From Datnioides undecimradiatus (lineage: Eukaryota; Chordata; Actinopteri; Lobotiformes; Datnioididae): a stretch of DNA of 64,000 nucleotides. Under the pieces are notes generated by a model. The model worked only from the letters and a program-made list of their open reading frames with translations, was not told where the DNA came from and did not search any database. The stretch is taken from contig WARS01000007.1 of the NCBI GenBank assembly GCA_008933995.1, positions 7,188,923 through 7,252,922 on the forward strand. The letters are read 5' to 3'. Positions 8,004 through 55,923 of the stretch are shown here, piece after piece. The translations under genes were made by a program, and so were the position numbers. The number at the start of each line of letters is the position of its first letter. Positions within the stretch are counted from its first letter, which is position 1.

Positions 8004-11000
8004 TACTATCCATTCAGGCCTGCACTCATTTGGTATTTTATCTACACGAGACAAATCACAAATCACAGCAGAAATCCACCTGTCCCTGAAAAAGTCCAGA
8101 ATCCCTAATGCCATGTGAAACATAACCATTTAGTTTCCATATCCACCATTTTAACACACAATAGCTTTTTGTAGCAAAAGCAATCACGCTTTATCCAAAA
8201 TGTTTAACTTCAGGGCAGTGATGACTTAGAAATGTGGCAATAACAATAAATGTATCAGAAATATTAAGGTCAATCAGGTAAAATCACCACATTTCACATC
8301 AATTTAAATATGCCAAAGAGACCTTAAAATAGGCCATGCTAATGCAAAACAGCTTCAGTGGCCTGTATAATTTGTGGGACCAAGTCATTAAAACAATGAA
8401 GCTTCCAGGACATGACATGTTTCCCTGATTAATCATCATCCTGTACGCAGGAGGGGTCACTAAAGTGTTGTCATATCCATATAAGAAAAGAGGACAGAAG
8501 TGTGGGAAAGTGTGTCTCACAACACCTTGTGTCTCGAAACAATCAGCATTTCTGGAGAGAAGCAGCCTTGTTTGCAGCTTACAAACTATTTTTGGATAAA
8601 CTCAAAAAAAAAGAAAGAAAAACGGGCACATGCATTTTTCAGCTCATCCAATGATGGGATTATGAAAGAGTTTCATAAGATTAAAATTCATAGAGAGATA
8701 CACACAATCGTAGTAAAGCTTGCTGGCCCTGTGAGGGTGCGCAAACAGAATATGGCTGCTAAATGCTTATATCTGACTGGATTCGAGGTCTACAGCATGA
8801 TGAATGCTAATATTTTAGTAGATTAGCATATTCAAATCTGGTAAGTATGAGCACAGACATGCTGACTTTAAAATCTAAAAACGTGCAGTCGCGGGTAAAC
8901 AGGCCAACACAGACAGAACAGAGAAGGCTGACTCAAAACTAGATGCCCTTTGTCCCTGAAAACTCCAGCATCAACATTACACATTATGTAAACAACATAC
9001 CATCATAATCGCCGAGTAGCTGCGCGAAGAGAGGCGGCGAAGATACAAGTACTGGGCTTCTCTGGACCAGCGGAACTTGCGGCCGGACTTGAGCAGGTCA
9101 GTGCTGGTCTGGTCAGAGCCAGGCTGGTCCCTAAGCACAGAAACACACACACATTTAACTACAAGTGTGCTACACATAGAAATGTTTTACAACAAACAAC
9201 ATTCACTCTGTGAATCTTTGTCAAGAGAGAACAAAGTATAACATGTGACCTGAGTATTATTACACATGCATACCTATGCAGTGAAATGTTAATTTGCAGA
9301 GTGGTTTTGAAATTATTATAAATCATGTTACAAATAAAGGTTAGTTTAATCATCATGTTTGACACTACTCAGCAAGTAAAAACAGTTATACAGTTAACAT
9401 CACTAGTCTTTTGAATGAACTTGGTCAAGTAATGCTAGAGTAATATTGGTGCAAATCTGTAGGGCAGACTTTTCAAATCATTCTGCTTACTACTTTATTT
9501 TCATGGAATGATAAAACAAAAAATAAATCAGTGTGATGGGATTACACATTTGTAGCATGAGTACATGAGTTGTACTTCAGGAGATAAGGCTTACGCATCA
9601 GTGCAGTCCAAAGCCACTCCCGTGGACTCCCACTTACAGATTGTTTTGAAATATTATTATGTATCAGGCAACAAGACCAAGAGTTCACAGTCATGATAGT
9701 AGCACTGTGAGGCTGTGATTGAGCACAGCCACGCTTTGGGCCAAATGCTAATGCAAACAAATTCCAACAGGGATGTCTTTACTTTCGCAGGTATTTGATC
9801 AAAAACCAAAATACTAGACAAACTTCAACTTGCTATTGGTGCTTAGTGAAAAGCTTAAGGATTGTCAAAGTTGGTCGATTGAAACAAGCAGTCTGTAGAT
9901 CCAAATTTAGTTCTGGGATTTTCAATTTTTGTTGCAATGGATTAGAAACCTCACACTTTCAAAAGGATGAGAAGAATGATGATTGGCAAGGACATATTTC
10001 CAAGGCCAAAGATGAGAACAAGTAGAGCTAGAAATGGTGACTAAAATACCGTTTCCTAAACTAAGCCACCCGTGTATGGCTGTGACAAAAGCCAAAAGAG
10101 ACCAGGCCCACACTGATACTACTGACTATAATACTATAATCTGCAGTCTCACTTCAACAGCCGCATCTCTGACCTGATCGCTAACAACATGTACGAACAT
10201 GTGGTGTTCTCTACTGAGCTGAAACTTTTTTTCCCCAACTTCATGGCAGCGAGTCAGAAATGAAATGTCTGACGCGTTCAGACGGAGTCAGTCAGAGGCT
10301 GCTGACATACTGTGCGGAGAGTTAAAAAGGGAGATTTGAGATTGGCTCTGCATGACTAAACCTGCTGCTCCTTACACATTAAGCACAGACTTGTAGGTTC
10401 AGTGAAACAATGAGGAAGGGTTTGGCTTCTCCAATGTAACAAGTTATCTAAAACACAACTCATTGGACTTCAAAACATAGTTTAGCTTTACTTTGTCACA
10501 TAGGTTTGCTCTGAGAACTTAATATTACCCTTCTATAAAAACTGGGGGGGATATTAAAAGACACATTAAATTAAGAAAGGTGAAAGACTCCTTTCTTCTT
10601 TAGACACGCCCTGCTTGGCTGACTTCAGAGTCAACTCACCCACGGGGTTTCTCTTATAAATGCAAAGTCTCAATCCTTATCAGATATAAACTAAGGACAA
10701 AAAGTCAGGTATCGCATTGATAATAGTGTTTTCAAATAACGCCAAACCCCTTTGTTAACAACAAATAAATGTAAAATCACATTGAGTATAATAGATTTCT
10801 CTACCTGCCTGTGATGCATTTTAAACTAACATCACTTACTGGGAAATCTGACCTTAAGTGAAGCCATCAGTCAATAATAATGTTTCATTATTTTAATTGG
10901 CGTCACTTTATGGTAATATAAGGATTAGGGTGCATGTCATGATAGACCATTCCACAATCCAAAATGATAAACAGTTTTTTCTAGATAGGTTCATATAGGA

Positions 11001-23072: not shown

Positions 23073-23964
23073 TCATACCAAGTAGACGTCCAGTTCAGAG
23101 TCTGACTGGCTCCTGCTGAGAGACGCCAAAGGATCATCCAGAGCGATCGTTGAACTGGAGGCTCGTCGGTCTTCACTGTAACATAAAAATACAAACATGG
23201 TGCAAGCATGCATTGACTGTGTCAACATTTGTATTATGGCATTGTGGGCTTTTTCACAAAAAGATTTATAATTCCTGTACAATTTATCTGCTCAGTTACA
23301 TATCTATAATTGTCTTCTTTTAGAGAATCTGAAGTGATGAATTTGTATTAACCTTTCTTAATTCCTGGAAAGCTCGCTTGTTATGACACAGTTTAGATCT
23401 GAGAGCTGCACATGTAAAAATACCTGCTTGCAAGATCCTCTTCATCATTCCCAGTGCATTCAAAAGAAACTGCTGATCTCGGCAGAAGATCTGGTTGCTT
23501 GGAGGAACTATAAACTGTTGCAAAAAGCACACCCTGACTCACAGATATGTAAAAACCTTTAAAACCTCTCTGAAAATGACCAAAACGTTTCTCACTATCT
23601 TGTGCACAGTGTATTTGTTTGAACTCACAGTTTCCATCCAGGTTGTCCATGCTTTGGGCCTTCTTCTCCTCCTTCTTGTCATCTTTCTGTGGGGACAGAA
23701 ACTCCTGAGAGGCTGACTTTACCGCATAGAGGGAACCCCTCTTCCTCTTTGAAGATGCTCCTCTTAAAGCTGAGAGACACCAACAAGAGAAAGGATTAGA
23801 AATAAAATATGCAGGAAACAGAATACAAAAGTTATTTCAGTGTGACGACTTACGATGAATCTTTTTAAACACAGTTGAGCCCATGAATTTCAGAAATCTG
23901 TCTGCGTAAAAACTGGGCCTGTGAACCGACACTGTGTCCTGAAGAGCAAAGAATGCTGTCAGAT

Positions 23965-24013
<49 letters not shown>

Positions 24014-27000
24014 CATATGCAAGTATTTGACCGTGCAGGTACATACCCCATCATGTACAAGAGCTTTCCAGGAGTGTTCCACCTTCTTGATGAATCTGAA
24101 AATATGAATAAAAGAACACCACTTATAATGTATTTAATTATAATAATCATACTGTATGTTTATGGAACCAGGTAACACAGTTTAGACTCTACTGACAAAC
24201 TGTGTCTTTGTCTAAAGCCAACAGAGTGGTCTTTTTAGCTGAAGCTAGACACAAACACTGTGACAATGACTATGACAGGCAAACACTGTTCCTAATTAGT
24301 CATATAAAACAGAAAAAGGAAACTCAGTTTTGTTATAAAAATGTATTCTTATATTAACTGTTTATAATCCAATACTGAAAAGGTACAAAATGTTTTGATG
24401 TATCAGAGAAGCGCTACAGACTGAAAAGTGGGAATGTTTGTGTTTCATACTGAGCTCTCACCTGTAGGACTGAAGGATGTCGATGATTCCCAAAAAGATA
24501 AGAAGGTTCTCGTCTTTATGTTTGGCAGGAATGCCACCCAATCTGAAAAAAGCAAGATGTGTTGATTAACTTTACAGTTCTTAATTAAACAGAGTACTCG
24601 ATCTACCTGAGTTATGTCCGAGGACAAGTTTGGTGAAATAGAGAAAACTGTTAAGTTTGAGCACAGTGTAAAAAGAATTAGAGGAGAATTTTAGAAAGTA
24701 AAAACAGAAGGATAGAGAAACAAAAGAAAACAATAAGAATATTTGATATTTGTTTGGTGACCATTAGTCTTCATCTCTTCATCGCAGGCCTGCCCAAACA
24801 TAACAGCTCTCATGTCGTATTTATGCACACTGCCTAAAACCTCTCTAGCACTGATGTAGCAAAACAACGATTCAAATATAAAACCAAGCTGTGAAATCTA
24901 ATGTTAAAAAACAATATGTGTGATACATATTGAACCCCCTTAAAAAAAACAAAAGCAGATCCAAAAGCAGCAATCGCATTTACGGAGATAAATGGAGAAA
25001 GTTTCATTACGTGTCGTCATCAGCCACCGGTTCAGGGTCCTTCACGGTCCCCTGGATGGACTCGAGGGCAGTGGAGTAAAGCACTTTCTGCCCTTTCCTG
25101 CTGTCACATCGGCTTCCTCTGCTCAGCGGCTTCCGGTCCAAAATGTGAATCCCCAGCAGGAGACTGTAGTCCATAATCTTAAAGCTCTCCAGGACCTAAC
25201 AAGAGACCAAAACTCAGTGTGAGAAACTCATAGACTCCTTAAGGCGTGTCCTCATTCGGTGGCTGCAGCTGTAATAAATCTCATAACACGCTAAGTAACA
25301 TGTTCCATGTTGAGACATGTAGCTGGCACACACAATGTGACACTACACCTGGGTTTCACGTTTGAACTTGTGTCACATTTGAGCATGTCAAGCATGACCT
25401 CTGACCCACATGTAAAGCGTGGTAATTGAACAGAGAATTTCATAGTCTGTAAATGGTCTTAAATTGTTATTACTTTCGGATATTAGGTCAGCGTCAAGGT
25501 ATTTCTGCTTTTTGCCAAGAGCTATTTTCAGTAGAATAACAAGTATCAGATTAGTCTAACAAAACAGGTCTACTTCAGTGTACTAAACACCCACAGTAAA
25601 CTATTCTTCAACAAGTGACGTCTCTGCTTGACTGAACCAAGTCACAGTTACAGTACAGTCAACATACGTAAAGACTTGCTCCCTCTGACCAAACGCTGAT
25701 GTCATGAAGTAACCCCTGTAAACAAAGAGGCCCTAATACACTGACTCAAGCCTTTCAAAAGGCCCAATAAGTCCACACTACACCCAGACGGGCCACTTTG
25801 TGCTCCAGAGTCCAGATGCTCAGCCTGATCATATGAGTCAGGTGCTTCGCTCTACTGGCTGTTAATCCTCCATCAAGTGGCCACTGTTGTTACACACTAA
25901 TGAAATAACAGGCAGGCACTAATGAGGTCATCATAACAGCTCGAGAACAACCCAGGGGGGGGCTCATTCAAGGGGGCTGTCATAGTTACATAATGTAATG
26001 GAAGAGGCGGAGTAGTGCTGTGTTTACTGGTTGAATTCAGTTCAGGCTGCGATAAAGAAAGTCACTGTGAGCGGGCTTAGTACTTAATAAACCAGAGAAA
26101 CAATAAAAAATCAATAGCAATTTTGATGACTGATTTATAGCTTTAGTAATCTATTAAGCCAAAAATAACAGCAAATTAAATACTGTTGGGTTTCGGACAA
26201 GCCTAAACAGGAATAATCAAAACTCTTGAAACGTCACCTTGGCTTCTGGAAAATTGTGATTGATGTTTTATAGAAAGAAATTTCTAATAAAAAGTAATGA
26301 TTAGTTTTAGCCACTGACTTATTCTCAACAACATAATCCTAATAATTTACACATAAGACATGCTTGCTATCAAATATCACTGCCTCTAAACTCAGTATGT
26401 TTCACGTAAATACATTTACATTTAAATAGAAAGCAAGACACCTGGACTTCCATTGTCTGCTGCAGATGTTAATGGTCCCCAGATCTGAATTTGAATAATT
26501 TTAATGACTAACCAACCAAACAGATCTTAACCATGGCCAGTGTTTTGAAAACCTGAAATTAAATACCACCCTGCCACTGCTCCAAATTCATTTTTTAACT
26601 CTTGAACTCTCCTTTTGGACAGGACTTACAGTAGCCAATCAACTGATTACTTGACTTTTGTATTAATGGTCCCCAGAGGATGAACTATTTACACTTTGTA
26701 AAATCTTTCCTTTAGGTCATGATGTCAACGGTGTCATAAGACATCCCATGATGAAAGAAGCATTTTCCCAGCAATGTTTCTGATAACACTTCTGCTCCCT
26801 GGAGAATGAGCCATTTTAAGGTTAATGACCCTTTGACCATAAACTTAAACACTAATCTCAGTCACATTATAGAACATGATCTACTGCTGATAGATGTATG
26901 TAAGAACTCACCCGACAGTCCCTCTGCAGGGTCTTCATCAGAGCGCTGTAGGTGTCTGAGTCAAAGTGCAGGCCCTCGTGCATCTCCTGAAAGTCCAGGT

Positions 27001-30000
27001 CTTTAAATGTGGGTGAAGACTTGCCGCGTTCTTTGCGTGATGCACGGCGTTTGTATGAGGAACCCTTCAGGTCGTACTTGTAGTGCATCTTCATGGCACG
27101 CGGCAGCACATTGTTCATCACCACAACACGGACAGTGACACCACTGCACTGGATGCAGTAAAGACCGTAAAACTTAGGCAGCAGTGTCCTCGGGTTCTGA
27201 TTCAGGTTCTACAATGAAAAAGTAAAAGCAGACTTTTCTGAGGATAAAATGTTAAATAGAGACATCTCGGATGAATAAATATGGTTTATTAAAAGTTGCA
27301 TGTAAAATGATACCTCTAAAGCATCAGTAATTGACAATATAAATGTAAGCTGAAATCTCTATGGCTCCTCATGATTTTAAAACTTTGTTCACAAATTTGA
27401 GTCTTTGAATTTCAACTTGTTTTGCCAACATGCAGTATATTTCATGGATATTTAAGTGAATAAACTGTGGTAGTGAGACACACAATGCTGCCTTTAAAAT
27501 AAATCTTCCTGCCCATTGAAGAATAAATAAAATAACTATGTCTGATCATAAACTTAGAGTGTAATTTACATGTTTGTTTGCACTTTTCTGCTGGTGGACA
27601 GCTGATGGTGCTCATGCACAAAGGAACAAGGATAAACAACTACAAGCTTGGACTGTAAGCTATCAAACAAAGACATAAACAATTGTGGTGAGAGTTTGAG
27701 GCGGGAGCTCACCATGTAGTAACCAGGAAGCAGCTTTTGCAGGAACTCAGCCTCTTTATGTTGCACTGTCTTAATGATGAACTCATCATCGCTAGTGAGG
27801 TAGAACCAGGAACTGCTGGCACCAGGGTTGGACAGCTCGATCAGAGGCTCATTACAGATGGAGTACTGAAATTCAGAGTAATGCAACAGTCTTAGCATGG
27901 ATAAGTGTTGCAATAGATCAATTATCTGAAACCCCCACCACTTTGTGCTGATTCAGAACGATGAGGAAACATCACACTGACCAGATAGTCATCTGGTTTG
28001 ATGCCAAACAGCTCTCTGAAGTAGCGAAAGGCCAGTGGTGCGTATGTTTTCAGACGGAAATCTGGGAAGTGATGTGCTGGAGTCAGGTTGCTGCCCTCAC
28101 TGAAGAAAGTATTAAATGTTAGGACAAGAAAACCATCATTGTATAAAAACAAAACAGTTTATATATCTTTAAGTCTGTGTTGTCCATTGCTCTCTGTACA
28201 AATCAAATATCACATATCAGATGGATCTGAATCTAAGGGGTCAGCTCATTCAAAAAGCAATGAAACCACTCATTTTATCCAGAGAGACATTTTTTCTATT
28301 ACTTGGTGAAAGTGGTTTGTCAGTTCTTTCAGCTGGACAAACATTATATTCCCTCCACATTTCAGTTTTGGGTGGACACAGAGAAAAATAATCTCACTGG
28401 ATCAGTTGCTATCAGTAAATCATTAATTCATTAATTCAATTTGAATACATTCCATATTTCTGCACATTGAGTTCCATATAGCCCTTAGCTTGTTGTATTC
28501 CTGGCAGGTTGGCAAGTCCTGGACACCTTCATCTTCTCTCCATGTTTGGTGTGTCACACAAACGAAACACTTTGCATCACGTCACCGTACTTAGACTAAC
28601 CACCCACTGAGAAAAGCTCAGTTAGCAAGAATGGGAACAGGTTGTTGTCTCCTGGGTGATGCAGTTTATTTTGGGTCTTTATGAATCACCCAGAGAACCT
28701 GATATGGAGAGGGTGCAAGTGGCAGCTTATGAGAAGTGCCGGTGTACAAGAGAAAGTCACAATATCTGGATGTCTAAATATTACTAGAGGTAGGTAGAAA
28801 AATAGAGCATGAGTTTATTATTGAATTCATCAATTAAGTTTATCATTCTGAAATTGATTTTGAATATGCACACTGGGCAAATGTAAACAATAATATGTAG
28901 AAATGGGTGTGTACCTGGGCAGGAAGACGCTCTCTACCACGGAAAAGTCCTGCATGAGAACATCTCTGTCTGGTTTAGAGCTGAGGTTTCCCACAGCGTA
29001 ACCAATGCCCAGCTGGATGGCTCCTTTCAGAGCAGATGCTGTGGGCTAACAAAATATGACAGAGAAGAAGAAACACATTATTTAAAATAAAATAAAATAA
29101 AATAAAATTAAATATATGTATATATTGGCAACAGCAGTGTTGATTAATGAGCCTATCCAATCAGAGATTGGTCCCAGCAAGTGCTTTACTTTGTCCACCA
29201 AGAAGGTTCAGTTTACTGTCTGTTAGCAGGCAGCTTGTGTATATATGAGGCTATAAATAAACACAGTAGTGTTCTGACTTAACTGCTCACATCAACATGC
29301 CAACATGTTTGAATGTCAGTGCTTCAAAGTGTCAGTACTTCAAACTATGAGTTTTCCCCACCAACTGTACACTAAACATCCAAAGATAAGATTTACAATA
29401 ATTGATTAATTCATTAATAATGGATTTATTAAATTTTGTTAGCATGCTAATATTTGGCAGTTTGCATAAATGTCATTGGTTTTGACATTCTGGTCATGAA
29501 GTTAAGGGATCGCCAAAGATGGTGATGGGGTTGAGGTGGGGAACATGAATGCATGTATCAAATTTCATGGAAATCCATCCAAGAGTTGCTGAGGCATTTC
29601 ACGCAATGTCTGAAAAGTCGACCTTGTGGTGAAAAAAAGTGGACCATAAAAGTCATTGAAGTTCATCCGCTGGTGGCATGAATGTAGAAAAAACTATACT
29701 ATACGTAATTGAATGCTTTAATTTCATAGATGGTATTTCCTGTTTTTTACTCATTTTGATGTTATTTGTCAATCTGATATCATGAGAAAAACAGGAAATG
29801 CCTTACTATATCAGTCAACTTAACACCACAACACCTCATGAGGATACTCTGTGGATTGTTGCAAATTTCACAGAAATCTATCCAATGGTGAGAAACTTCA
29901 GTCTGGTTCAATCTGTTGAACCGATTGACAGACCAACATTGATTCCTCCTGAGCTGTTTTGATGTTATAGTAAGTCTAAAATAAGAATTTGATAATTAAC

Positions 30001-30088
30001 AATGACGTCTGCTTACCTTTTTATGATCCTTTGACACTTTAGAGGTTTTGGTTCCTCTTCCTAAAGTGTCTGTGCTGGTTGTTGACAT
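23073..30088 (-). CDS. pip5k1b: PIP5K1B: phosphatidylinositol-4-phosphate 5-kinase type I beta, ten coding exons
   Basis: Phosphorylates PI4P to PI(4,5)P2 at membranes. Coding exons on the minus strand: 30017-30088, 28915-29045, 27982-28099, 27713-27865, 26912-27208, 25011-25195, 24462-24542, 24047-24095, 23854-23938, 23629-23769, 23424-23514 and 23079-23175 with read-through to a stop at 23073. All phases join, giving about 501 aa against 540 in human. Landmarks: ATP-site Lys139 in EFIIKTV; DLKGS at 204-208; MDYSLL near 265; GIIDILQSY at 337-345; activation loop with Glu352 (KKVEHSWK), the residue that favours PI4P over PI5P. The beta type is supported by VFLPSEG, PLAFRYF, MHEGL.FD and the C-terminus LDVYL. 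Oddities: a 24-aa non-conserved N-terminus, and one residue fewer before MHEGL than I recall for human. The last codons could instead splice at gtatga (VYL|). There are 12 segments in all, the last two forming the tail. Confidence 0.95.
23967..24009. repeat. (CA)n microsatellite inside a very short PIP5K1B intron
   Basis: About 21 CA units. On the coding strand this is a GT run occupying about 40 percent of the 108-base intron 23939-24046, upstream of the 23938 acceptor. Confidence 0.9.
29260..29950. repeat. Teleost-type interspersed repeat in PIP5K1B intron 1
   Basis: It contains phrases I recognise from common fish repeats: gttagcatgctaatatttgg near 29440, then atttcatggaaatccatcca near 29570 and a related caaatttcacagaaatctat near 29870. 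The second and third phrases look like two diverged copies of one unit. No coding capacity is seen, and the family name is uncertain. Confidence 0.5.
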
Positions 30089-32480: not shown

Positions 32481-35018
32481 TCCACCCACCTGTTGTGTTA
32501 TTCCCTAGCACCTATGAGGCAGACTGAAGTGTTGCCTGTAATATTGCATGTAGAAGTCTGTGGGAAAAAAATACAAGTGAAACCAGAGCCTTTATAACAT
32601 TTTGTAATCATTCTCATTTTCATACAGTTGTTATTGAGCTCTTGTTGTATGTTTGTACTTTTTTAAACATTTTAATGCAATGATAATGATATCGTAAAGC
32701 AAACTGAGCATCCTTTTGACTACAACTGTGGTTGCTGGAATAATATTCATGATATTGACAAGGATGTTATTAGTTAATAGATGTTGAGCAGCCAGTTAAA
32801 AATATCTACCTATTGATTTGTACGAGGCAGAGGACAATAGAGACGTGACAGGATATGAGAGGAGAAAGAGATGAGAAATGATGAACAACATTTCCTCAGC
32901 TGGACTTGAACCAGTGGTGTAATCTAATTACATACATTTACTCAAGTACATGGTACTTGAAAAGCCTATAAATAGCAGTGAACTGTGAAAGATTAGTTGG
33001 TACAGTCATGTCATGTTTTGCATGCACCATAGGCCAGACATTAATATATAGTCCTCATTAAATTAAACAATCTACGCTTATTAATAAACTGTGAATACAT
33101 TATATAAACCACATTGTTCTTTTGGAAAATGATCACACAAAATACTGTAAAATAAAAAAAAAACAACCCAGAGCATATATTAAAAAAAAAACAACATGTG
33201 TCTTTCTTACACACTACAAAAGTACAGGGTAAGGTTCCACGTGCCTGGCATGAATGAGTTTTCTCAGATACAGTGTCAGTGTTTCCATCTGGCCTCTAGG
33301 GGGTGCTGGTGCAGCTCTAGCACACCTGCCAAACCTTTCAGTTCTTAAGGGATCACTGCATTTTCCCTAAGGTGTGGTAACACTGCTCAATTTTATTAAT
33401 CTGTTCTCAACTCTGCTGCTGTGCACTTTGTTCCTGTCGAATGCCTGAGAATTTTCTTTTGTTCATTTTCATTTCCTCTGCAAACACTGGCTTTGTATTG
33501 TTATTTACTCCTGAGATAAAGTCTCTATTTTTCACCACTGTCTTTCTCTTTTTTCTCTCCAGATATTTGCCATTTTTTCCTCTAAGTAGGCCAGAGTTCG
33601 ACCTGTTGGAGGTTTGTTTGGGAACACAAGAGGGGACAGGCTGCCTGCAAGTCGGACGTCAAGATGGTGACTTGAGGCCATCAGATATGAACTCAGTCCT
33701 CCAAGATTTAACTCACAGCCTTTGTCATATTTGGCTGCAGTACAGCTGTGAGCTTACAGAGCACAGACTTCCTGTTTCTCTTAAATATACTTTGCTTAAT
33801 ACTTCTTTCTGAAAGTCAATCAGATGACGCAAAAGAAAAGGAATAAAGTGACCACAAAGACACAAAAGTATCACAAGAGGTGTGATCCCATCCAGTTATT
33901 TCTTTTAATGTCAAAATTTCTTTGCTATATTTCCATTTTTACATACTCTCTACACTCTATAAGACACTTAAGCTGGATTTGTGGATGAAATGTGCCATAA
34001 AAATGAATGATAGATGAGAGATAAAACTACTGCTATAGCCAGCATCACAGGTTTCCTCCCATGATCTATTTTATATTTTGTATAGTATCCGTGGAGAGGA
34101 GTGGTATGTTTATTTTGCACATTTCCTTTACATATACTTCACTGATTTCTCATTGCACTCCTGTAATTTTGTCAGAATCATAATTGACAGTTTAAACAAA
34201 AGTGAAGTCTAGCCTGCACCAATGCGACTCAAGCAGTGATGAGGAGTGAGCTACAAAGGTCCGGCTCTGTCTAACCCCACACCCACGGACATTTTTTGTC
34301 TTTGTTTTCAGCCCCAACTAATGCTGACTCAAGTGACATCACTTGTGGCTGTCTATCACTCCTTAACATCTGCAAACACACTATGATTTGAAAAAATGCT
34401 TGGAGTGAAATAATGACACTTGGTTTACCAATTTGTATCAAAATTGTGTATTGTGCATTTCATTTCTAAAAAAACTGCTATGAGAGCAGGAGAAATCTCC
34501 CCTTCTCTCTATTGACATGTTTGCTTTTCTCATTTTAAAGGTCGAATGTAAGACTGAATGACTTGCCAATAATTTTATTGTCTAACATTATCCACAAGTC
34601 AAGTGCACAGAGTGCGTTGAGCCTCTCCTATAGGGACATATAGATCAACATGTCCAAAAATGTGAGGTTATATAATGGTTATGCCATGTTATGTCATGTC
34701 ACAGTATGTAGACTGAGAGCAACATAAGCCACTGGTTGTAATCAGAAAATCTGTTTTGCTCTTATTGTAGTGTAAACTAATAAGAGTATGCTCCACTGCC
34801 TCTACTGGACTGTACTCAACAGTTTGAGAAACTACTTTCAGAGAACTTCACGTTGTTTCATGGTACACATGACCTGAATACAACCAAATGAGTTTAATTA
34901 GTTAAACCAAAAAACACGTGAATTAGTTCTTAGATCATTTTGATTCTTAGATGATGAACCTCTGAACGTCTGTGTGTGTTGTTAGTCTGAAGGTTTCTCT
35001 GACTTCAGTGAGTGTCTG
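32481..35018. other. Intergenic region between PIP5K1B and the ANGPTL-like gene
   Basis: No exon was recognised on either strand. In particular there are no fibrinogen-like motifs (GGWT, WLG, GWW) that would extend the ANGPTL-like gene. The open frame 33441-33812 has no domain signature. Confidence 0.5.
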
Positions 35019-35024
35019 TTTATT
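35019..35024 (-). terminator. Polyadenylation signal for the ANGPTL-like gene
   Basis: AATAAA on the minus strand, 275 bases past the stop of the proposed last exon. This supports the gene ending here. Confidence 0.35.
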
Positions 35025-35298
35025 TGGGTGTGTATGAGCAAAGTATCTTCCCACAGCATTTCACCACCATCGTCAACCACAATATTGTGGAAGTCAGAGC
35101 CACAACACAATGACTCAGGAACAGTAAAGTTGTCTTTTCAAACAGACCACAACTGATGGCTGTTTTTGACAGTAGCCCAAATATGAATTTATCTAAATTG
35201 GGAAGCACATTTGTTGATTCTGTTGTGGGTTTCAGCAGCTCATTCTGTCAGCCATTCTAAATGAGAGTGAAGTCACTATGTTGACGCAGCTGTGCTCA

Positions 35299-37429
35299 TC
35301 AGACACAGTCGGGGCCAGAAACTGGTCTCAGTGCTGCTGGGAGCCTCTCAGACATCTAAAACATACACAAAGAGACAGGTCACGAATAAAGACATGCACG
35401 TTTTACTATAGAAAATGTGCTTTTATCTGGACATACAGTTTATATTTATATTTATCTCGTACATGTTGTTATATATTTTTGGATAATATTATGTTAAATA
35501 TCCACTTTTTCTGCTTTGTTTGTTGCTGCATTTTAGTTGTTTTGCATTTGCCCTTTTTGTGTATATCTGCAACTATTTGCACATTTCACTGCATCATTTT
35601 AAAAAACAATTGCAAATAAATTTGAACTGATTTATCAATTTATTGATTTTTTATTTTTATAACACATCTCACTAATAACATTAATTATTTCTTGAACTAA
35701 TTAAAAATAAATAATATTTCAACAATACTTCATTTACTTTAGGGAGTCTAATCTCTTGGACTAAAAGTCATACAAATACAGCTATAACTACTACTAACAG
35801 AGCAATTACATGTCTAAAGTCGGGCAATAAGAAGAAGGCATCAGCATACCTGTTTCTCCAGGTGGTCAATGTACTGCAGGTGTCTGTCAATCAGTCTGTC
35901 TCGGGCTGAAACCTCTGAGGTCAGACTGGCGAGCCTCCGGGTCTGTTTATCGATGATAACCTACAGCACAACAAAGATATTAGATGACGAGAACAGTCAA
36001 GTCTATCATGTCTACTGAAAAACATGTGTCTACAACAACACAGAATAATAATAATAACAGAAAAACATTATTTTTAGATTTTACAGTTTTATCTGACATT
36101 TAGGAAAAAAAGAACTAAGCAAAAGGGAAGTAATACATTATGTGGCCAATAGTGTGTGGACATCCATGCGGTGTTTGAAACCTTGTTTGGCTTAAGCCCC
36201 ATGGTTTCAGTGCTGGTTAATCTTAATGTTTCAGTGTACACTGATATTTTAAACAATAATGTGCTTCCAACTCTGCATCAACATTTTTATAAATGTTTTG
36301 TCCTGTTTCAACTTAATAAATTGCATTGATTACAACTGAGAATTAGATGTCTTTATATTCCACCAGGGCAAGTACGTGTCTGTGTATTGGTTCAGTTCTT
36401 AGTTTTTGCTCACCTTCATGGAGCTGATGTCGAGCTGATCTCGCCCCCCTGTCCTTGGCTCAGTCAGGCTCGTCACCCTTTGTAGGATCCGGTTCATCTG
36501 GTTCTTTGTGGCTCCCTGCTCCGTCTCCAGATCCTCCAGTACTTTCTGCAGATCTCCGATTGCCCTCCACAGCCTGTCCCCCCTGGCACTCTGTATCTGC
36601 AGGTTCTTCCTTACCTAAAGAACACAACATTCATCACATTATTTATGTATTATTTATATATGTTCTTGTCCAGAACAGTTTTCATTGAAAGCGCTATATT
36701 TGACAGTGGGCAGCATCATGTGTATCATTTAGACCAGCATGTTACAGAGTATTATTCAAACCCACTGAGATCTATTTCAGACTTAAATGTGATGATGCTG
36801 CAGTAAAAATCATGGTGTTATGGTGCATACATAGGATACATTTTAAGCTTTTACATAACAAAAGTTTTAACACAAAAGCATCAACCCACAAAAAGGAAAC
36901 ATAACTACATGTATATTTTACTTAGCACTAAAGTAGAAGATAAATGAGTTTCTTAAAAATAAGGAAAACTAATACAGAAATACAGCACAACAGTGCACTG
37001 TATTTAAATTGTTTCATGGATGAATATGTTTTAACAGGGACCAGAGCAAAGTGAAAGCATATTTGGCTCCCCAAATTGCCTATTAAGGTAGATTTTGGCC
37101 TTTTTCAAATGCTTCAGGCTCACCTGCCTTTGAGTCCGGCCTGCCTGTAAAGTCTGCTTACGAAAGCTCTCCAGACTCTTTGTGGCACTGTCCAGGTCTG
37201 CTGCCACCTGCTCTCCCTGCTCCTCCAGCCGTGCGGCGTTCTCTTCCACCCCCCGCAGCAGGTGAGCTAGTCCCAGGGAGAGCATCCTCAGCTGAGACAC
37301 TGGGACCTCACCTGCCTCCTGCGATATGGAGGCATCACTTGGTGGAGGGGCAGTCTGGGCCTGACACAGCCCCACCAGCAAAACGGATATCTGCAGCACT
37401 CTGGTCCCCCTCATACTCCTGGATTGCAT
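35299..37429 (-). CDS. ANGPTL8-like secreted coiled-coil protein lacking a fibrinogen domain
   Basis: Four exons join in phase: 37124-37429 (102 codons), 36414-36614 (67), 35850-35960 (37) and 35299-35355 (18 plus stop), for 224 aa. Residues 1-25 form a signal peptide (second Met at 6, hydrophobic VLQISVLLVGLCQAQ). Residues 45-60 (SQLRMLSLGLAHLLRGVEEN) match the lipase-inhibitory segment of ANGPTL3/4 (LA.GLLQLG.GL). The remainder is heptad-rich coiled coil, including QVAADLDSATKSL and LWRAIGDLQKVLEDLE. ANGPTL3/4 continue into a fibrinogen-like domain; this gene does not. Human ANGPTL8 (198 aa, four exons) also lacks that domain. Family members regulate lipoprotein lipase in plasma. A TTTTAAAG at 37543-37551 could serve as the TATA element. 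The last exon is short and is the least certain part. Family placement is confident; orthology with ANGPTL8 is inferred. Confidence 0.75.
36130..36180. repeat. DNA-transposon/MITE terminal fragment in an ANGPTL-like intron
   Basis: The phrase tatgtggccaatagtgtgtg followed by gacatcc resembles terminal repeats of Tc1-like MITEs that are frequent in fish. No partner terminus was located. Confidence 0.35.
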
Positions 37430-37551
37430 CAGGTGAAAACTCTAAGTCCTTTCCTGCTGGCTTTAAGATCTAGATCCCAAAACTTGAAAACCCAGAACCA
37501 GATCAGCACCATATACCAGATATTTGGCTTAAGAGAGCAGGTCTTTAAAAG

Positions 37552-38617
37552 CTCAGGAGTCGTAAAGAGATGAATCCACATATGCAGGGCTTCTAGTGTC
37601 CTGATGTGTCTCAGATGTTCCCTGGGGAGATCTGGAGCTCATGACTGGGGAAGAATAAAGGGACACGGAGAGGGAGGAGAGCCAGACGGAGATGAGGGGG
37701 GAGTTCCTAGACTGACGCATGATCTATAAAATAGGAAAATTAAAGCGAGTTATGAAAAGTGACCTGAGAAAACCTGTTATGATTTGACACTGTATGCATA
37801 AAATTAAATTTAATTAAGTTATTTACTTAAAGTCATACCCAGAATTGGTCCCAAATCATGTATGCACGAGACATCATTTCATGACTCCTGTTGAAGCATT
37901 ATCAATATCATCTGATGTTATAAAATACTCAATCATAATGCACAGTTACAAGTGAAAGGAGTTGGTTTACTGTGATCTACACTTCGCTGAATTTTGGACA
38001 CTTTTCTCATCATGCACATTGGTTTTATACATGAAAGTGAGGCAAGAGAGACATCTTCTGGCTGGTTGGGGAGCTGCAATGACCCTCTTTCCGTTGCAAA
38101 CTGGGAGGTGTGATGATAACCGTGAACTGTTCACAGTCTAGTCACTTACTTTGCATGTTTGCAGTTTGGTACTCACATTATAGCGCACAGTGACTTTAGA
38201 AGATCCTGGTTGGAAACAAGATTGATGATTGTACAGTAAATGTTCACAAAGACAAACCCACGAACTAAAAGAGGTTGAAATGCTTTGTAGGACTGCAGAT
38301 TTTGTGATAGCTCTCTGTGACTACACGTTACACAAAAACATTTAAAATATTACAAAAAAGAAATAATAAAAATCTATGGTTTTGAATAAAGGCTTTGCCC
38401 CTCAGATTCACTGTACTTACTATTCAACAGTGTTTCCAATAAAGCTTTGTTGAACTGAACTGGATTGAGACACAACATGACTTCCTACACTCAGAGTCAG
38501 GCTGAAAGAGCTGCTTTGTGCCAATGAGGGACAGACCAACAAACTGTTCTTTGAATTGTTTTGGAGTTGGGGCTGGCCTTATGCAGAAACGACACTATGT
38601 CAACTCATAAAGCCTGA
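37552..38617. other. Intergenic stretch upstream of the ANGPTL-like gene; nothing recognised
   Basis: AT-rich sequence without splice-consistent frames on either strand. Confidence 0.4.
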
Positions 38618-46723: not shown

Positions 46724-48410
46724 CAGTAGTGATGGGTCCGGCAACACTGATGCGTTGGCACGTGTTGAGCTTATAGAGCGAAACCCCGTGTCGGTGCGCG
46801 TATCGCGTTAAGAAAGAGTCACGTGACCGATACAGATGCTGTTTCGTCTGTCACTGAGGCGCCAAACTGTGTTTATAAGGAAGCGCATCTGTCAGCGGGA
46901 TGCGTCTCTGTCAAAAAGAAAAGCATTGCACTTTTGAATCTGAACTTTTCCTTCAAGCCTTGCTATGGAGCAAGAAAGAAAGAGAAAGGTGTCCGCCATG
47001 TGGGACCATTTTGATCTTATATCAGCAAATATGGTATTTGTTTTTATTTCATCCTGTTCCTCTCAGTTTCCGCTTGATCTATCAGGATCAAATCCATTTC
47101 CAAGTGACTTAAATTACTCATGTCGCATTTGTTAAATGTCGCATTTGTTTGACAGAATTCTCATATATAAATAAAAGCACCTCTTCAATGCTTCGGCATT
47201 ATAGAGCAAGGCATGAAAATGAGGAGGCCACAAATACACCAACAATAAACACAGGTAGGCCTATACAGCCATTTTATAACTTCATAGTCCTCAATGTTCC
47301 GCATGATCGCTTTGTTAATAATGAATATATATATTGTTTTTTTATTTCATTTTTGACCATCAAGCTTCTACTAAGCATGTGTTGGACGAAGCAATCGTCA
47401 ATTTCATCATCAAAGACTGCCAGCCTCTCAGCACTGTTGAGAGTGAGGGCTTCAGGGAACTGCTTCAGGTCCTTGATCCCTCATATGTTTTGCCAACCAG
47501 AAAGGTTTGTCTAGCAAATGTCTACAGGAGTAGTTATATTTAATTAATTTAATATGTAATTTAAATATATTGGTTTGCTTTTGGCTTAGTTTTGTTTAAT
47601 TTTTCAGACTGTCAAAGAAATGGTGGACAGAAAATATCAGGAGGAACGAGAACGAGTGAAAATGGAAGTACAGCAAGCTGTGGCAGTGACATCAGCTGAC
47701 GTGTGGACATCTGTGAATATGGAAGCTTACTTGGCTCTTACCTGTCACTACATTAATGAGAATATGCCTTTGTGTACATCTGTGTTGGGAGTGCAACACT
47801 TTCCACAAAGTCACACTACAGACAATTTGGCCCAAGTCAGAAGGGGCATGATGGATGACTGGGCCATAACCCACAAAGTAAAGTGTCTTGTGACTGACGC
47901 AGCACCAAACATGATTGCATCCACAAAACATCTCCATATTCGCCACTCTGTTTGCATTGCACACACGCTAAATTTAATAGTAAGGAAGTCATGTGATCAA
48001 GTCCCAGCACTTACATTCATCAAGCACCACAGCCAAAGAGAAGCTTGCTCAAGTGCAGCAACAGATGGGATGGCCACTCCTCCTCCTTTTTTAGATAACC
48101 TGTGGCAGCACCTCGACGAGGAGGTTGGAAGGCAGACAACCAATGCCACAGCAGACGCTATCATTGAGGTGCAGAGATACCTCGGAGAAGGCAACCTGCT
48201 GAGAACCCAGGATCCTCTGACATATTGGGCCAGCCACAAGCATGTGTACCCAAACCTGTTCCATCTTTCTCTACAATTTCTATGCACACAGCATCATCAG
48301 TCCCATGTGAGTGCGTGTTCTCAAAAGCTGGAGAACTGGCCTCCAAAAAAAGGAATCGCCTGAATGCAAAAACACTGGAGAAACTTGTTTTTTTGAATAA
48401 AAATTTGTAA
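46724..48410 (+). mobile_element. Defective hAT (BED-finger, Ac/Charlie-like) DNA transposon
   Basis: CAGTAGTGATGGGTCCGGCA at 46724 resembles a hAT terminal inverted repeat. It is followed by a GC-richer leader and an intron-containing BED transposase with internal damage. The matching 3' terminal repeat was not found in the 0.9 kb after the coding part, so the right boundary is unknown and the end given here is only the end of the coding remnant. Confidence 0.65.
46965..48410 (+). pseudogene. hAT transposase (ZBED-like), exon structure preserved, frameshifted and internally deleted
   Basis: Exon 1 is 46965-47033 and carries the BED start KVSAMWDHFDLISANM. Exon 2 is about 47131-47254 and completes the finger (VKCRICLTEF...SMLRHYRARH); its acceptor lacks AG. 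Exon 3 is 47365-47504 (FIIKDCQPLSTVE, LDPSYVLPTRK). Exon 4 starts at 47608 (TSADVWTS, CLVTDAAPNM, CIAHTLNLIVRK). Near 48028 the frame slips: the neighbouring frame reads TAKEKLAQVQQQMGW. A large part of the catalytic core is then missing before DNLWQHLDEEVGRQ. A further slip near 48285 puts the C-terminal dimerisation motif (SSVPCECVFSKAGELASKKR, ending at 48410) in another frame. It cannot make an active enzyme. Confidence 0.85.
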
Positions 48411-52681: not shown

Positions 52682-55600
52682 ATGCTCGGTCTGGAGACTT
52701 TGGAGGGTCAGATATCTGCTGTAATGGAGACTCTGGTGAAAACAGCGGTGACGGAGCTCAGCACGCTCCTGGACGGGTGCTCGGCTAACGCTATGGCCGC
52801 TCAGCAGCGCTCCGCCTGGGCTCCAGCAACTCCTCTGAAGCACGAAGAAGAGGATGTCGTGGTTACTCCGCTGGAGGGGAGACAGCACTTTTATAAAGCT
52901 TTAATGGTACCACACAGACACAGGCAGACCCACACTCACGGTGGTGTAACGTGAAAGCAGCACGGAGCTGGTTTGTGGCTGTGCGGTTGCTAAAAACTGC
53001 GCCATTTTATCTAAATTCAGTACCGTCCGTTTACATGTAACGGCGCAAATAACTACAGTTCCCATGAGACTTGTAGGTTGTTGCCATGGAGAGGACGCTC
53101 GCGTGAGTGAAGAAAAACCTTGATGTTTTGGGTGTGTTTGCTTTGGTGTCGCTGACAGCAGTTATAGGGTCACTCGACTTATAGAGTTAATTAAAAGCTA
53201 CATTTAATAAAAGTTTGTTGTATTAAGTAACTTTCTACTAAATTTTCAGCTTTTTGGTTGTTAAGGGCCCAGGGCTCCTTGTATTTTCTCTCTCAATTAA
53301 CAAGTGGACTTTTTGGTAGATGTTCCCATAGCAACATCTTCTAACTGCTTTTTTTGGTCCAACCGCCTTTCCATAACTCAAGATATGCTATAAATGATGA
53401 TATAAAACAGAGAGGAAGAGCATATCCTCATATTTGAGAAACCCTACCCCTACCTCTAGTCAGTTTTTGTTACTCTTAATTCTGTCTTACTCATGACTTT
53501 ACAGAGCCATTTTGCATCCCTCATGGAAGAGTGGGCCAAAGGAGCAGTAGAGAAAATACTGATGATGCTGAAAGTGTCGATATGTGATGCTGAAGACAGT
53601 CCTGCTGCCTACCAGGGAACTGTGCTGAGTGATGAGACTAAACAGGCGAGCGTGAAGCTGAAAGCAGTGCAAATGTCGAGGCAAAGAAAGCGTAAGTCAG
53701 TTAATGGTTTGAGTGACTGTGAGACTTTATCTTCACGCACACTGGCATTTTGTGTTAAACAAGGAATAATAATGTAATTGTTAAATTATAGAATCGGCAT
53801 TCAGGAGCTCACGTCAGAAGAGACAGAAAATCAATGGAGGACCAGAACAAGCAATAAGAAAGGACAGTGAGCATATGTATCACCAAGGTATGAAATTTCT
53901 ATAGAATTCCATTTTTCTCCTTTATCCTACTGCAGTTGGAGATTGTAATTGATTGCAAAGTTTTCTTTACGTATGCTAAAACATGTCTTAAAAAATTGAT
54001 TTTTATGTCTCTGCATGTCTCTTTATGTCCAAAGGTCCATATCATAATGTTCTGCTAGAACACTTTTGTGGCCGTTATTCAACATCATAACTTTAGTTCA
54101 GAAGGGGACATTGTGACCCCATTTGACTTGCGGCCAGATACTGAGTCAGTGACACTAATCTTGGGTGTCCAGCTTGAAACTGTGCTGATTTTTGAGAGAT
54201 CTTCTGTGCTGCGTGAACGTCTATGAACCATCCACATTTTAGAATTTGTAGCGTCTTTGCAGCAACATCTGTTTTTGAAGCTTTGCAGATGACTACAAGC
54301 TCATTGGTTTTGCTGGTAATTAGCTACAGGTGATTGTCATTGCACCATGTAACGATGTAAGTAATATCTAAGTGAGGACAGCAAGTGTCTCAATGTAAAT
54401 TATTCACTGGATTCATACATGCCCACTTTGTTCAAAAATACACTTCAATCATTTGTTGACTTCCTCTTCATACATAAATTACACAACTCTGGACAGACAT
54501 GGATTTAAACTGCAACCTGACTGGCACTAGTTCTTCATGAGCTGTGTTTGTCTGTGTTAGCTGAATACATCTACATTGTTTCAAGTGGCCAAATGAAGCT
54601 TTTTCCCTTTTGTTTTTAGCTGATGCAGTCATTCCTGAGAGCATCTCTGGATCCCCATCTGAACCTGAGGCTTTGCTGACAGAGCCTGTTGCAGAGCTGG
54701 CCTCTGATATAAACAGGGAAGATGTCATCCAGGAGACTGCAGAAACCTCAACAGCCAAATCCAAGATCAAAAAGAAGACGACCACCACAGAGCTTTTCCA
54801 ATGCCCTTCTTGTGACAAATCATTTGCTCTTAAGTGCTTGATGGACAGACACTACCTGACTCACTCCAAACCTCATGTTTGCTCAGACTGTGGCAAACGT
54901 TTTGCTGGACTTTGGGGGCTCACAGCACATTCAAGAAGTCACACCGGAGAGAAGCTTTACCAATGCTCAGTCTGTGGGACAGAGTTTGCTTATAAGTATA
55001 CCTTTGACAGACACATGCGGCAGCACAGCCTGAAGAAATCAAGCACCCATATGTGCGCGCTGTGTGAGAATCAGTTCACAGGGCTGTTGGCGTTACAGCG
55101 GCACAGGTGTAGTGCCTTAAAAAAGACGTTTGTCTGCTCGCTTTGCCCAGAGACATTCGAGTGCAGACAGAGTTTGGCTGATCACGAAAATCTGCATTCA
55201 GGAGACAAAGATTTTGTCTGTGAAATGTGTGGCGAGAGTTTCTTCTCGTCCTCGTCCTTGGCCACTCACCGGGTGACTCACATGCAAAGGGAGAACTGCT
55301 GCGATGTGCTCGGCCTCGGTTCCAGTGACTTGAGTGTCCTCAAAAATCACTTGAGCAAACACACTGGAGAAAAACTTTTCTCCTGCGAGGTTTGTGGCAA
55401 AGGTTGTAGTCACCAGAGTGCTCTGAAGCACCATATGCTGACCCACACAGGAGAGAGGCCTTACATCTGCGAGACCTGCGGCAAGCGCTGCAGCCACGCC
55501 AGCGCACTTCAGAACCACATGAGGATCCACACTGGGAAGAAACCAGGGCAGCAGCCAATCTGCAGCGTGTGTGGCAAAACATTTCGCTGCATGGTCAATC

Positions 55601-55923
55601 TCAAATACCACATGAGCATTCACACGGGGGAGAAGCCCTACGCCTGTGATCAGTGTGATAAAAAGTTCAGCAACCCAAGCAATCTCAAGTTACACACCAT
55701 GATTCACTCAGGGGAGAAGATGTATGGCTGCAACATCTGCGGCAGGAGGTTCACGCAGTCCAGTAGCCTAAAGCTGCACAGGCGGATCCACACAGGAGAA
55801 ACGCCATATCGATGCATAGTCTGTGGAAAAGGATTCATCTACAGCAGCGAGTTGAAGAAACATCAGAAGAGTCATCTTCCAGCTGGAGATGGACAGTCTG
55901 AGAAAACTGCAGTGAAAGTCTGA
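52682..55923 (+). CDS. C2H2 zinc-finger protein, four exons, 603 aa
   Basis: Likely a nuclear DNA-binding regulator; target unknown. Exons 52682-52906, 53505-53691, 53792-53887 and 54620-55923 join in phase with GT-AG borders. The start at 52682 has A at -3; an in-frame ATG at 52646 is also possible. Exon 1 (MLGLETLEGQISAVMETLVK...) and exon 2 (HFASLMEEWAKGAVEKIL) each carry a helical module of the kind that heads many fish zinc-finger proteins. Residues 137-230 are charged and probably disordered, with basic patches (RQKRQK, KSKIKKK). Residues 231-588 hold 13 finger units. Units 1-3, 5, 6 and 8-13 are intact. Unit 4 lacks its final His (LQRHRC). Unit 7 has lost its Cys pair (NCCDVLGLGSSD). 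Linkers are TGEK-type. No KRAB, SCAN or BTB domain is present. A specific ortholog is not recognised. Confidence 0.9.
53052..53093 (+). promoter_or_regulatory. ZNF143-type and X-box (RFX)-type motifs just inside intron 1 of the zinc-finger gene
   Basis: ACTACAGTTCCCATGAG (53052-53068) fits the ZNF143/SBS consensus ACTACAATTCCCAG(A/C)ATGC over its first 13 positions with one mismatch. GTTGCCATGGAGAG (53080-53093) resembles the RFX X-box GTTGCCATGGNAAC. Both lie in a small GC-rich island, indicating that the promoter region extends beyond exon 1 or that a second start lies downstream. Confidence 0.45.

Follow-up and report, generated by a model that had tools for sequence, protein, structure and literature searches.

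A four-exon ANGPTL-like gene without a fibrinogen-like domain in the fish Datnioides undecimradiatus

A 64,000 nt window of contig WARS01000007.1 from one species, the fish Datnioides undecimradiatus, was analyzed and found to contain on its minus strand (37429-35299) an ANGPTL-like gene of four exons which has no fibrinogen-like domain. The gene is most likely a member of the ANGPTL3/4/8 group, because its product shares with human ANGPTL3 a unique ungapped diagonal and the two genes share two intron positions and phases. On its sequence we describe it as a fibrinogen-less member of that group and do not claim orthology to ANGPTL8. On balance we favour the view that this intact-looking gene would encode a coiled-coil protein, secreted and roughly 200 residues long, which acts as a partner of Angptl3/4 and alters inhibition of lipoprotein lipase (LPL). 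The human ANGPTL3, ANGPTL4, ANGPTL8, tropomyosin, vimentin and PIP5K paralog sequences used throughout are not database records; their letters matched the residues named in papers at 16/16 positions for ANGPTL3 and 8/8 for ANGPTL8.

The presence of a four-exon gene without a fibrinogen-like domain was confirmed. The exons (306, 201, 111 and 57 nt, the last including TGA) are each divisible by three and join in phase 0 to give 224 codons followed by TGA, while the three introns (509, 453 and 494 nt) are all phase 0 with GT-AG ends. GC content was 0.60, 0.57, 0.52 and 0.58 in exons 1 to 4 compared with 0.33, 0.33 and 0.27 in the introns, and an AATAAA signal was observed at 35024, 275 nt downstream of the TGA. 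The features of the gene are as follows.

37124..37429, minus strand: exon 1, 102 codons, with M1 at 37429 or M6 at 37414, a hydrophobic leader, a leucine-rich segment and the first half of the coiled coil
within 37124..37429, minus strand: leucine-rich segment of exon 1, aligned with the ANGPTL LPL-inhibitory region
36414..36614, minus strand: exon 2, 67 codons of coiled coil, bounded by phase-0 introns on both sides
35850..35960, minus strand: exon 3, 111 nt (37 codons), corresponding to ANGPTL3 codons 166-202 in exon 2 of that gene
35299..35355, minus strand: exon 4, 18 codons and TGA
35019..35024, minus strand: poly(A) signal AATAAA

These exons had been proposed in an earlier, sequence-only reading of the DNA, as had the stop followed by AATAAA, and both parts of that model held. 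An exon scan for internal exons, which used a vertebrate codon table and was blind to the earlier model, listed 70 non-overlapping candidates. Both boundaries of exons 2 and 3 were reproduced to the base, as was the donor of exon 1. Exon 1 scored 35.6, the top of the 70 candidates and the best in the window, exon 2 scored 25.5 and exon 3 scored 15.1; maxima of 8.5-11.9 per window were obtained across 20 first-order Markov windows, a lenient null which flatters the exon scores since real candidates of unassigned origin reach 21.3. Exon 4 was out of reach of the scan because it has no donor, and the support for this exon and the last junction comes from three features: the acceptor, the GC fraction and the downstream AATAAA. 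A repeat search over 34000-38500 gave nothing notable.

The product is 224 aa long from M1, and 219 codons remain when counted from the second ATG (M6). The base at -3 is C for M1 and A for M6. The exon scan also returned a plausible splice acceptor directly before M6 (37419-37440, minus strand), which suggests an untranslated upstream first exon and a start at M6, not M1. The translation start is thus uncertain and may be M6 (37414) rather than M1.

The earlier observation that no fibrinogen-like domain follows the gene was extended to the whole window. Searches by tblastn with the C-terminal domains of ANGPTL3 and ANGPTL4 (run at two settings, with the top 8 pieces of each query listed) revealed no fibrinogen-like domain in the 64 kb, the best E value of 0.32 being at other places, and five fibrinogen motif patterns gave 0 matches across all six reading frames of the window. 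At the point where fish exon 4 ends, ANGPTL3 runs on into its linker and fibrinogen-like domain.

Comparison of the fish product with human ANGPTL3 gave one gap-free diagonal over 164 residues of the N-terminal half with a score of 98, the next of the 300 diagonals scoring 35. None of 1000 heptad-preserving shuffles reached 98 (maximum 52), and the score was spread evenly over exon 1 (33), exon 2 (32) and exon 3 (31). The fish introns between codons 169 and 170 and between codons 206 and 207 coincide exactly, phase included, with the ANGPTL3 boundaries at codons 165/166 and 202/203, and the 111-nt fish exon 3 and ANGPTL3 exon 2 have the same start and end. These human boundaries are implied by two intronic variants, c.496-88 (intron 1) and c.607-109 (intron 2), together with the exon 2 variant c.565 (PMC7997994), and the variant c.495+6T>C gives the same first-exon boundary (PMC12873742). 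The ANGPTL-like kinship claimed in the sequence-only reading is supported by this diagonal and these boundaries. The fish gene differs from ANGPTL3 in having no linker or fibrinogen-like domain and in carrying one more intron, placed inside human exon 1 at the position matching codons 98/99.

For human ANGPTL4 the top two diagonals with the fish product were the expected ones, the 37-aa exon (46) and the N-terminal segment (42). ANGPTL4 differs from the fish product in having a fibrinogen-like domain and in lacking 58 coil residues of the alignment. Within the 37-aa exon the fish product was identical to ANGPTL3, ANGPTL4 and ANGPTL8 at 7/37, 9/37 and 8/37 positions, respectively, and the human proteins are identical to each other at 7-11/37. 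Aligned without its leader, the product scored 98 against the ANGPTL3 coil, a value reached by 0 of 300 plain and 0 of 300 heptad shuffles; ANGPTL8 gave 66 (2 of 300 plain and 2 of 300 heptad shuffles) and ANGPTL4 gave 51 (11 and 10 of 300).

The product begins with a hydrophobic leader, VLQISVLLVGLC, judged by eye to be a putative signal peptide. The coiled coil noted earlier was substantiated by shuffling, with heptad periodicity over residues 44-153 equalled in 0/2000 shuffles and over residues 169-206 in 20/2000; human ANGPTL3 gave 0/2000 in the same test. At the zipper leucines of ANGPTL8, L35/L38/L45/L49/L60/L67 (PMC9036128), the fish protein has L/L/L/V/G/L, so that four of six are Leu and one is Val, and the ANGPTL3 zipper residues L40/L46/L50/L51/L53/L57 correspond to V/L/L/A/L/V in the fish product. 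No N-glycosylation site was found in the fish product, and ANGPTL8 is also described as having none (PMC5237311). The single cysteine outside the leader, C223, is the penultimate residue and could serve in chain linkage.

The downstream neighbour of the gene is a type I PIP5K gene. A hAT transposase frame, probably a transposon remnant, and a C2H2 zinc-finger gene lie to the right of the ANGPTL-like gene.

23079..30088, minus strand: type I PIP5K gene, 1B-like, Pfam PIP5K E 7.4e-73, ends approximate
47590-48360, plus strand: frame with the C-terminal dimerisation domain of hAT transposases (E 8.2e-05 to Pfam PF05699)
54565-55920, plus strand: C2H2 zinc-finger gene exon, 451 codons, about 10 fingers, upstream exons possible at 52.5-53.7 kb

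The best PDB matches of the PIP5K neighbour were to type I alpha, and among the human paralogs it was closest to PIP5K1B (219/251 identical, against 207/249 for 1C and 192/248 for 1A), in agreement with its earlier naming as PIP5K1B. Its putative first coding exon begins MSTTST..., and a candidate last exon ends ...DVYL, followed by a possible splice donor or V-stop; DVYL is presumably the C-terminal end of PIP5K1B. The coding region is compact at about 7 kb (23079-30088), in keeping with a fish genome. Elsewhere in the window the exon scan listed an unassigned exon-like candidate at 9001-9130 (minus strand) with a codon-usage score of 21.3, and a Pfam search of the frame around it (8983-9186) gave nothing at E 0.1 or below.

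Several results weigh against placing the gene in the ANGPTL3/4/8 group. Identity between the fish product and ANGPTL3 was just 27/164, and gapped scores of 54-112 were obtained between control pairs drawn from fish, ANGPTL3, tropomyosin and vimentin (fish-tropomyosin 67, fish-vimentin 54, ANGPTL3-tropomyosin 67, ANGPTL3-vimentin 92, tropomyosin-vimentin 112). Because gapped scores reach the same range in these coiled-coil controls, weight is given only to the gap-free diagonal and the shared exon boundaries, and Smith-Waterman scores with shuffles were set aside as main evidence since unrelated coiled coils score equally high. The locus was not ranked by tblastn with ANGPTL3/4/8 pieces over the window: the best ANGPTL3-coil matches were elsewhere in the window (E 0.007-0.057), and ANGPTL8 picked up exon 3 (E 8.7) and a piece extending from exon 4 across the stop (E 0.29). 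Pfam and PDB searches with the whole protein returned just weak matches, mostly to generic coiled coils, and no ANGPTL. The polar residues E40/H46/Q50/Q53 of ANGPTL4, which are important in its LPL-inhibitory segment, are Q/L/H/R in the fish protein, and human ANGPTL8 has no heptad signal in the test described above (353/2000 shuffles). Of the lipase-inhibitor-type motif proposed earlier, the leucine core is mostly retained and the polar residues are replaced; over the 22-residue N-terminal segment the fish protein was identical to ANGPTL3, ANGPTL4 and ANGPTL8 at 5/22, 6/22 and 4/22 positions, compared with 7-11/22 among the human proteins. The low identity, the background-level gapped scores and the plain searches would fit an unrelated secreted coiled-coil protein resembling ANGPTL3 through composition. 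We consider this improbable, since the diagonal with ANGPTL3 is unique, with the control pairs giving top ungapped diagonals of 45-73 and runners-up of 43-63 (98 and 35 for fish-ANGPTL3), and since two intron positions and phases coincide with ANGPTL3; moreover, PDB searches with the N-terminal halves of ANGPTL8 and ANGPTL3 likewise matched no ANGPTL chain. The absence of fibrinogen-like exons in a single species would also fit the decaying remnant of what was once a full-length ANGPTL gene, but the frame is open through four exons, the splice sites are intact and the codon-usage signal is strong, which makes a relic very improbable.

Within the ANGPTL3/4/8 group, the fish gene resembles human ANGPTL8 in architecture, being short, with four exons and no fibrinogen-like domain or N-glycosylation site, and with four of the six zipper leucines. 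We assume that human ANGPTL8 exons 3 and 4 correspond to fish exons 3 and 4, in which case both genes have their stop in the exon following the counterpart of the 37-codon exon. A DKQ is also common to the start of the 37-aa segment in both. A true fish ANGPTL8 ortholog at another chromosomal place, with ANGPTL8 then predating mammals, is accordingly a real possibility, though one we would not bet on. Human ANGPTL8 has four exons (PMC4284785), but this number was rejected as proof of orthology since the first introns differ in position. R59 of human ANGPTL8 is in exon 2 (PMC5592946), so that intron 1 of the human gene falls no later than codon 59, well upstream of fish intron 1, which lies between codons 102 and 103 at the equivalent of ANGPTL3 98/99. 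The human gene is in intron 14 of DOCK6 (PMC5592946), whereas the fish gene adjoins a PIP5K gene, and no DOCK exon was recognised by eye in the exon scan of the window, a DOCK profile not having been searched. The ANGPTL8 score of 66 (2/300 shuffles) is no better than that of tropomyosin, the strong fish heptad signal is missing from human ANGPTL8, the polar H/Q of the LPL segment is absent in the fish protein, and two papers describe ANGPTL8 in mammals only (PMC4284785, PMC5237311). Trees of four taxa (fish and human ANGPTL3, ANGPTL4 and ANGPTL8), built from 77 anchored columns and from the full coil, rejected no topology: the approximately unbiased (AU) test for fish with ANGPTL3, ANGPTL8 or ANGPTL4 gave 0.29, 0.29 and 0.73 for the 77 columns and 0.37, 0.41 and 0.62 for the full coil. 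In the best tree ANGPTL8 was paired, at low bootstrap (70 and 51), with ANGPTL3 and not with the fish protein. We have kept the gene outside ANGPTL8 because intron 1 differs, the similarity to ANGPTL8 is at coiled-coil background and these trees reject none of the topologies. Between the two origins offered in the sequence-only reading, a relocated ANGPTL8 and an independent truncation, the evidence is divided: the position of the first intron leans towards an independent origin, and the place of truncation leans towards ANGPTL8. We give nearly an even chance to an independently truncated paralog, for example the one member of the DOCK-linked ANGPTL quartet that was situated by DOCK8/PIP5K1B and has disappeared from mammals, or a teleost copy of Angptl3 or Angptl4 that has been truncated. 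The first intron, the ungapped length match with ANGPTL3 and not ANGPTL8, and the adjoining 1B-like PIP5K argue for such a paralog, DOCK8 and PIP5K1B being linked on one chromosome; against it, ANGPTL8 is truncated in the corresponding exon, which would then have to be convergence, and the four-taxon trees reject none of the topologies. A further ANGPTL missing from mammals, the Angptl9 of non-mammals, differs from the fish gene in that it clusters with Angptl7 and has another neighbourhood (KLHL29, ADCY3, POMC; PMC5237311).

For the fibrinogen-less ANGPTL3/4/8-type gene that we favour, the action proposed is that a protein of about 200 residues would be secreted, that it would pair through its leucine heptads with the coil of Angptl3 or, alternatively, Angptl4, and that this would change how well the partner inhibits LPL, in the manner of mammalian ANGPTL8. 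Because the LPL-inhibitory polar residues are absent, partnership with Angptl3/4 appears likelier than stand-alone inhibition of LPL. A more speculative and rather unlikely extension is that the vertebrate ancestor had an extra ANGPTL3/4/8-type gene by the PIP5K1B region, which was lost in mammals and kept in fish as an independently truncated partner in Angptl3/4 heteromers; if true, fibrinogen-less ANGPTL partners evolved twice.

Three papers state that ANGPTL8 is absent outside mammals (PMC5237311, PMC4284785, PMC10475376), and one of them links the emergence of the gene to traits of mammals (PMC4284785). A non-exhaustive literature search on titles and abstract openings found no description of a fish ANGPTL8, and the gene may already stand under a predicted name in some fish. 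The fibrinogen-less ANGPTL3/4/8 layout, reported in mammals only so far, may have arisen separately in fish. A fibrinogen-less gene of this type in fish would mean either that ANGPTL8 is much older than has been supposed or that truncated partners arose repeatedly, and the feeding-state LPL switch would become testable in fish, which are described as having no GPIHBP1 (PMC8319833).
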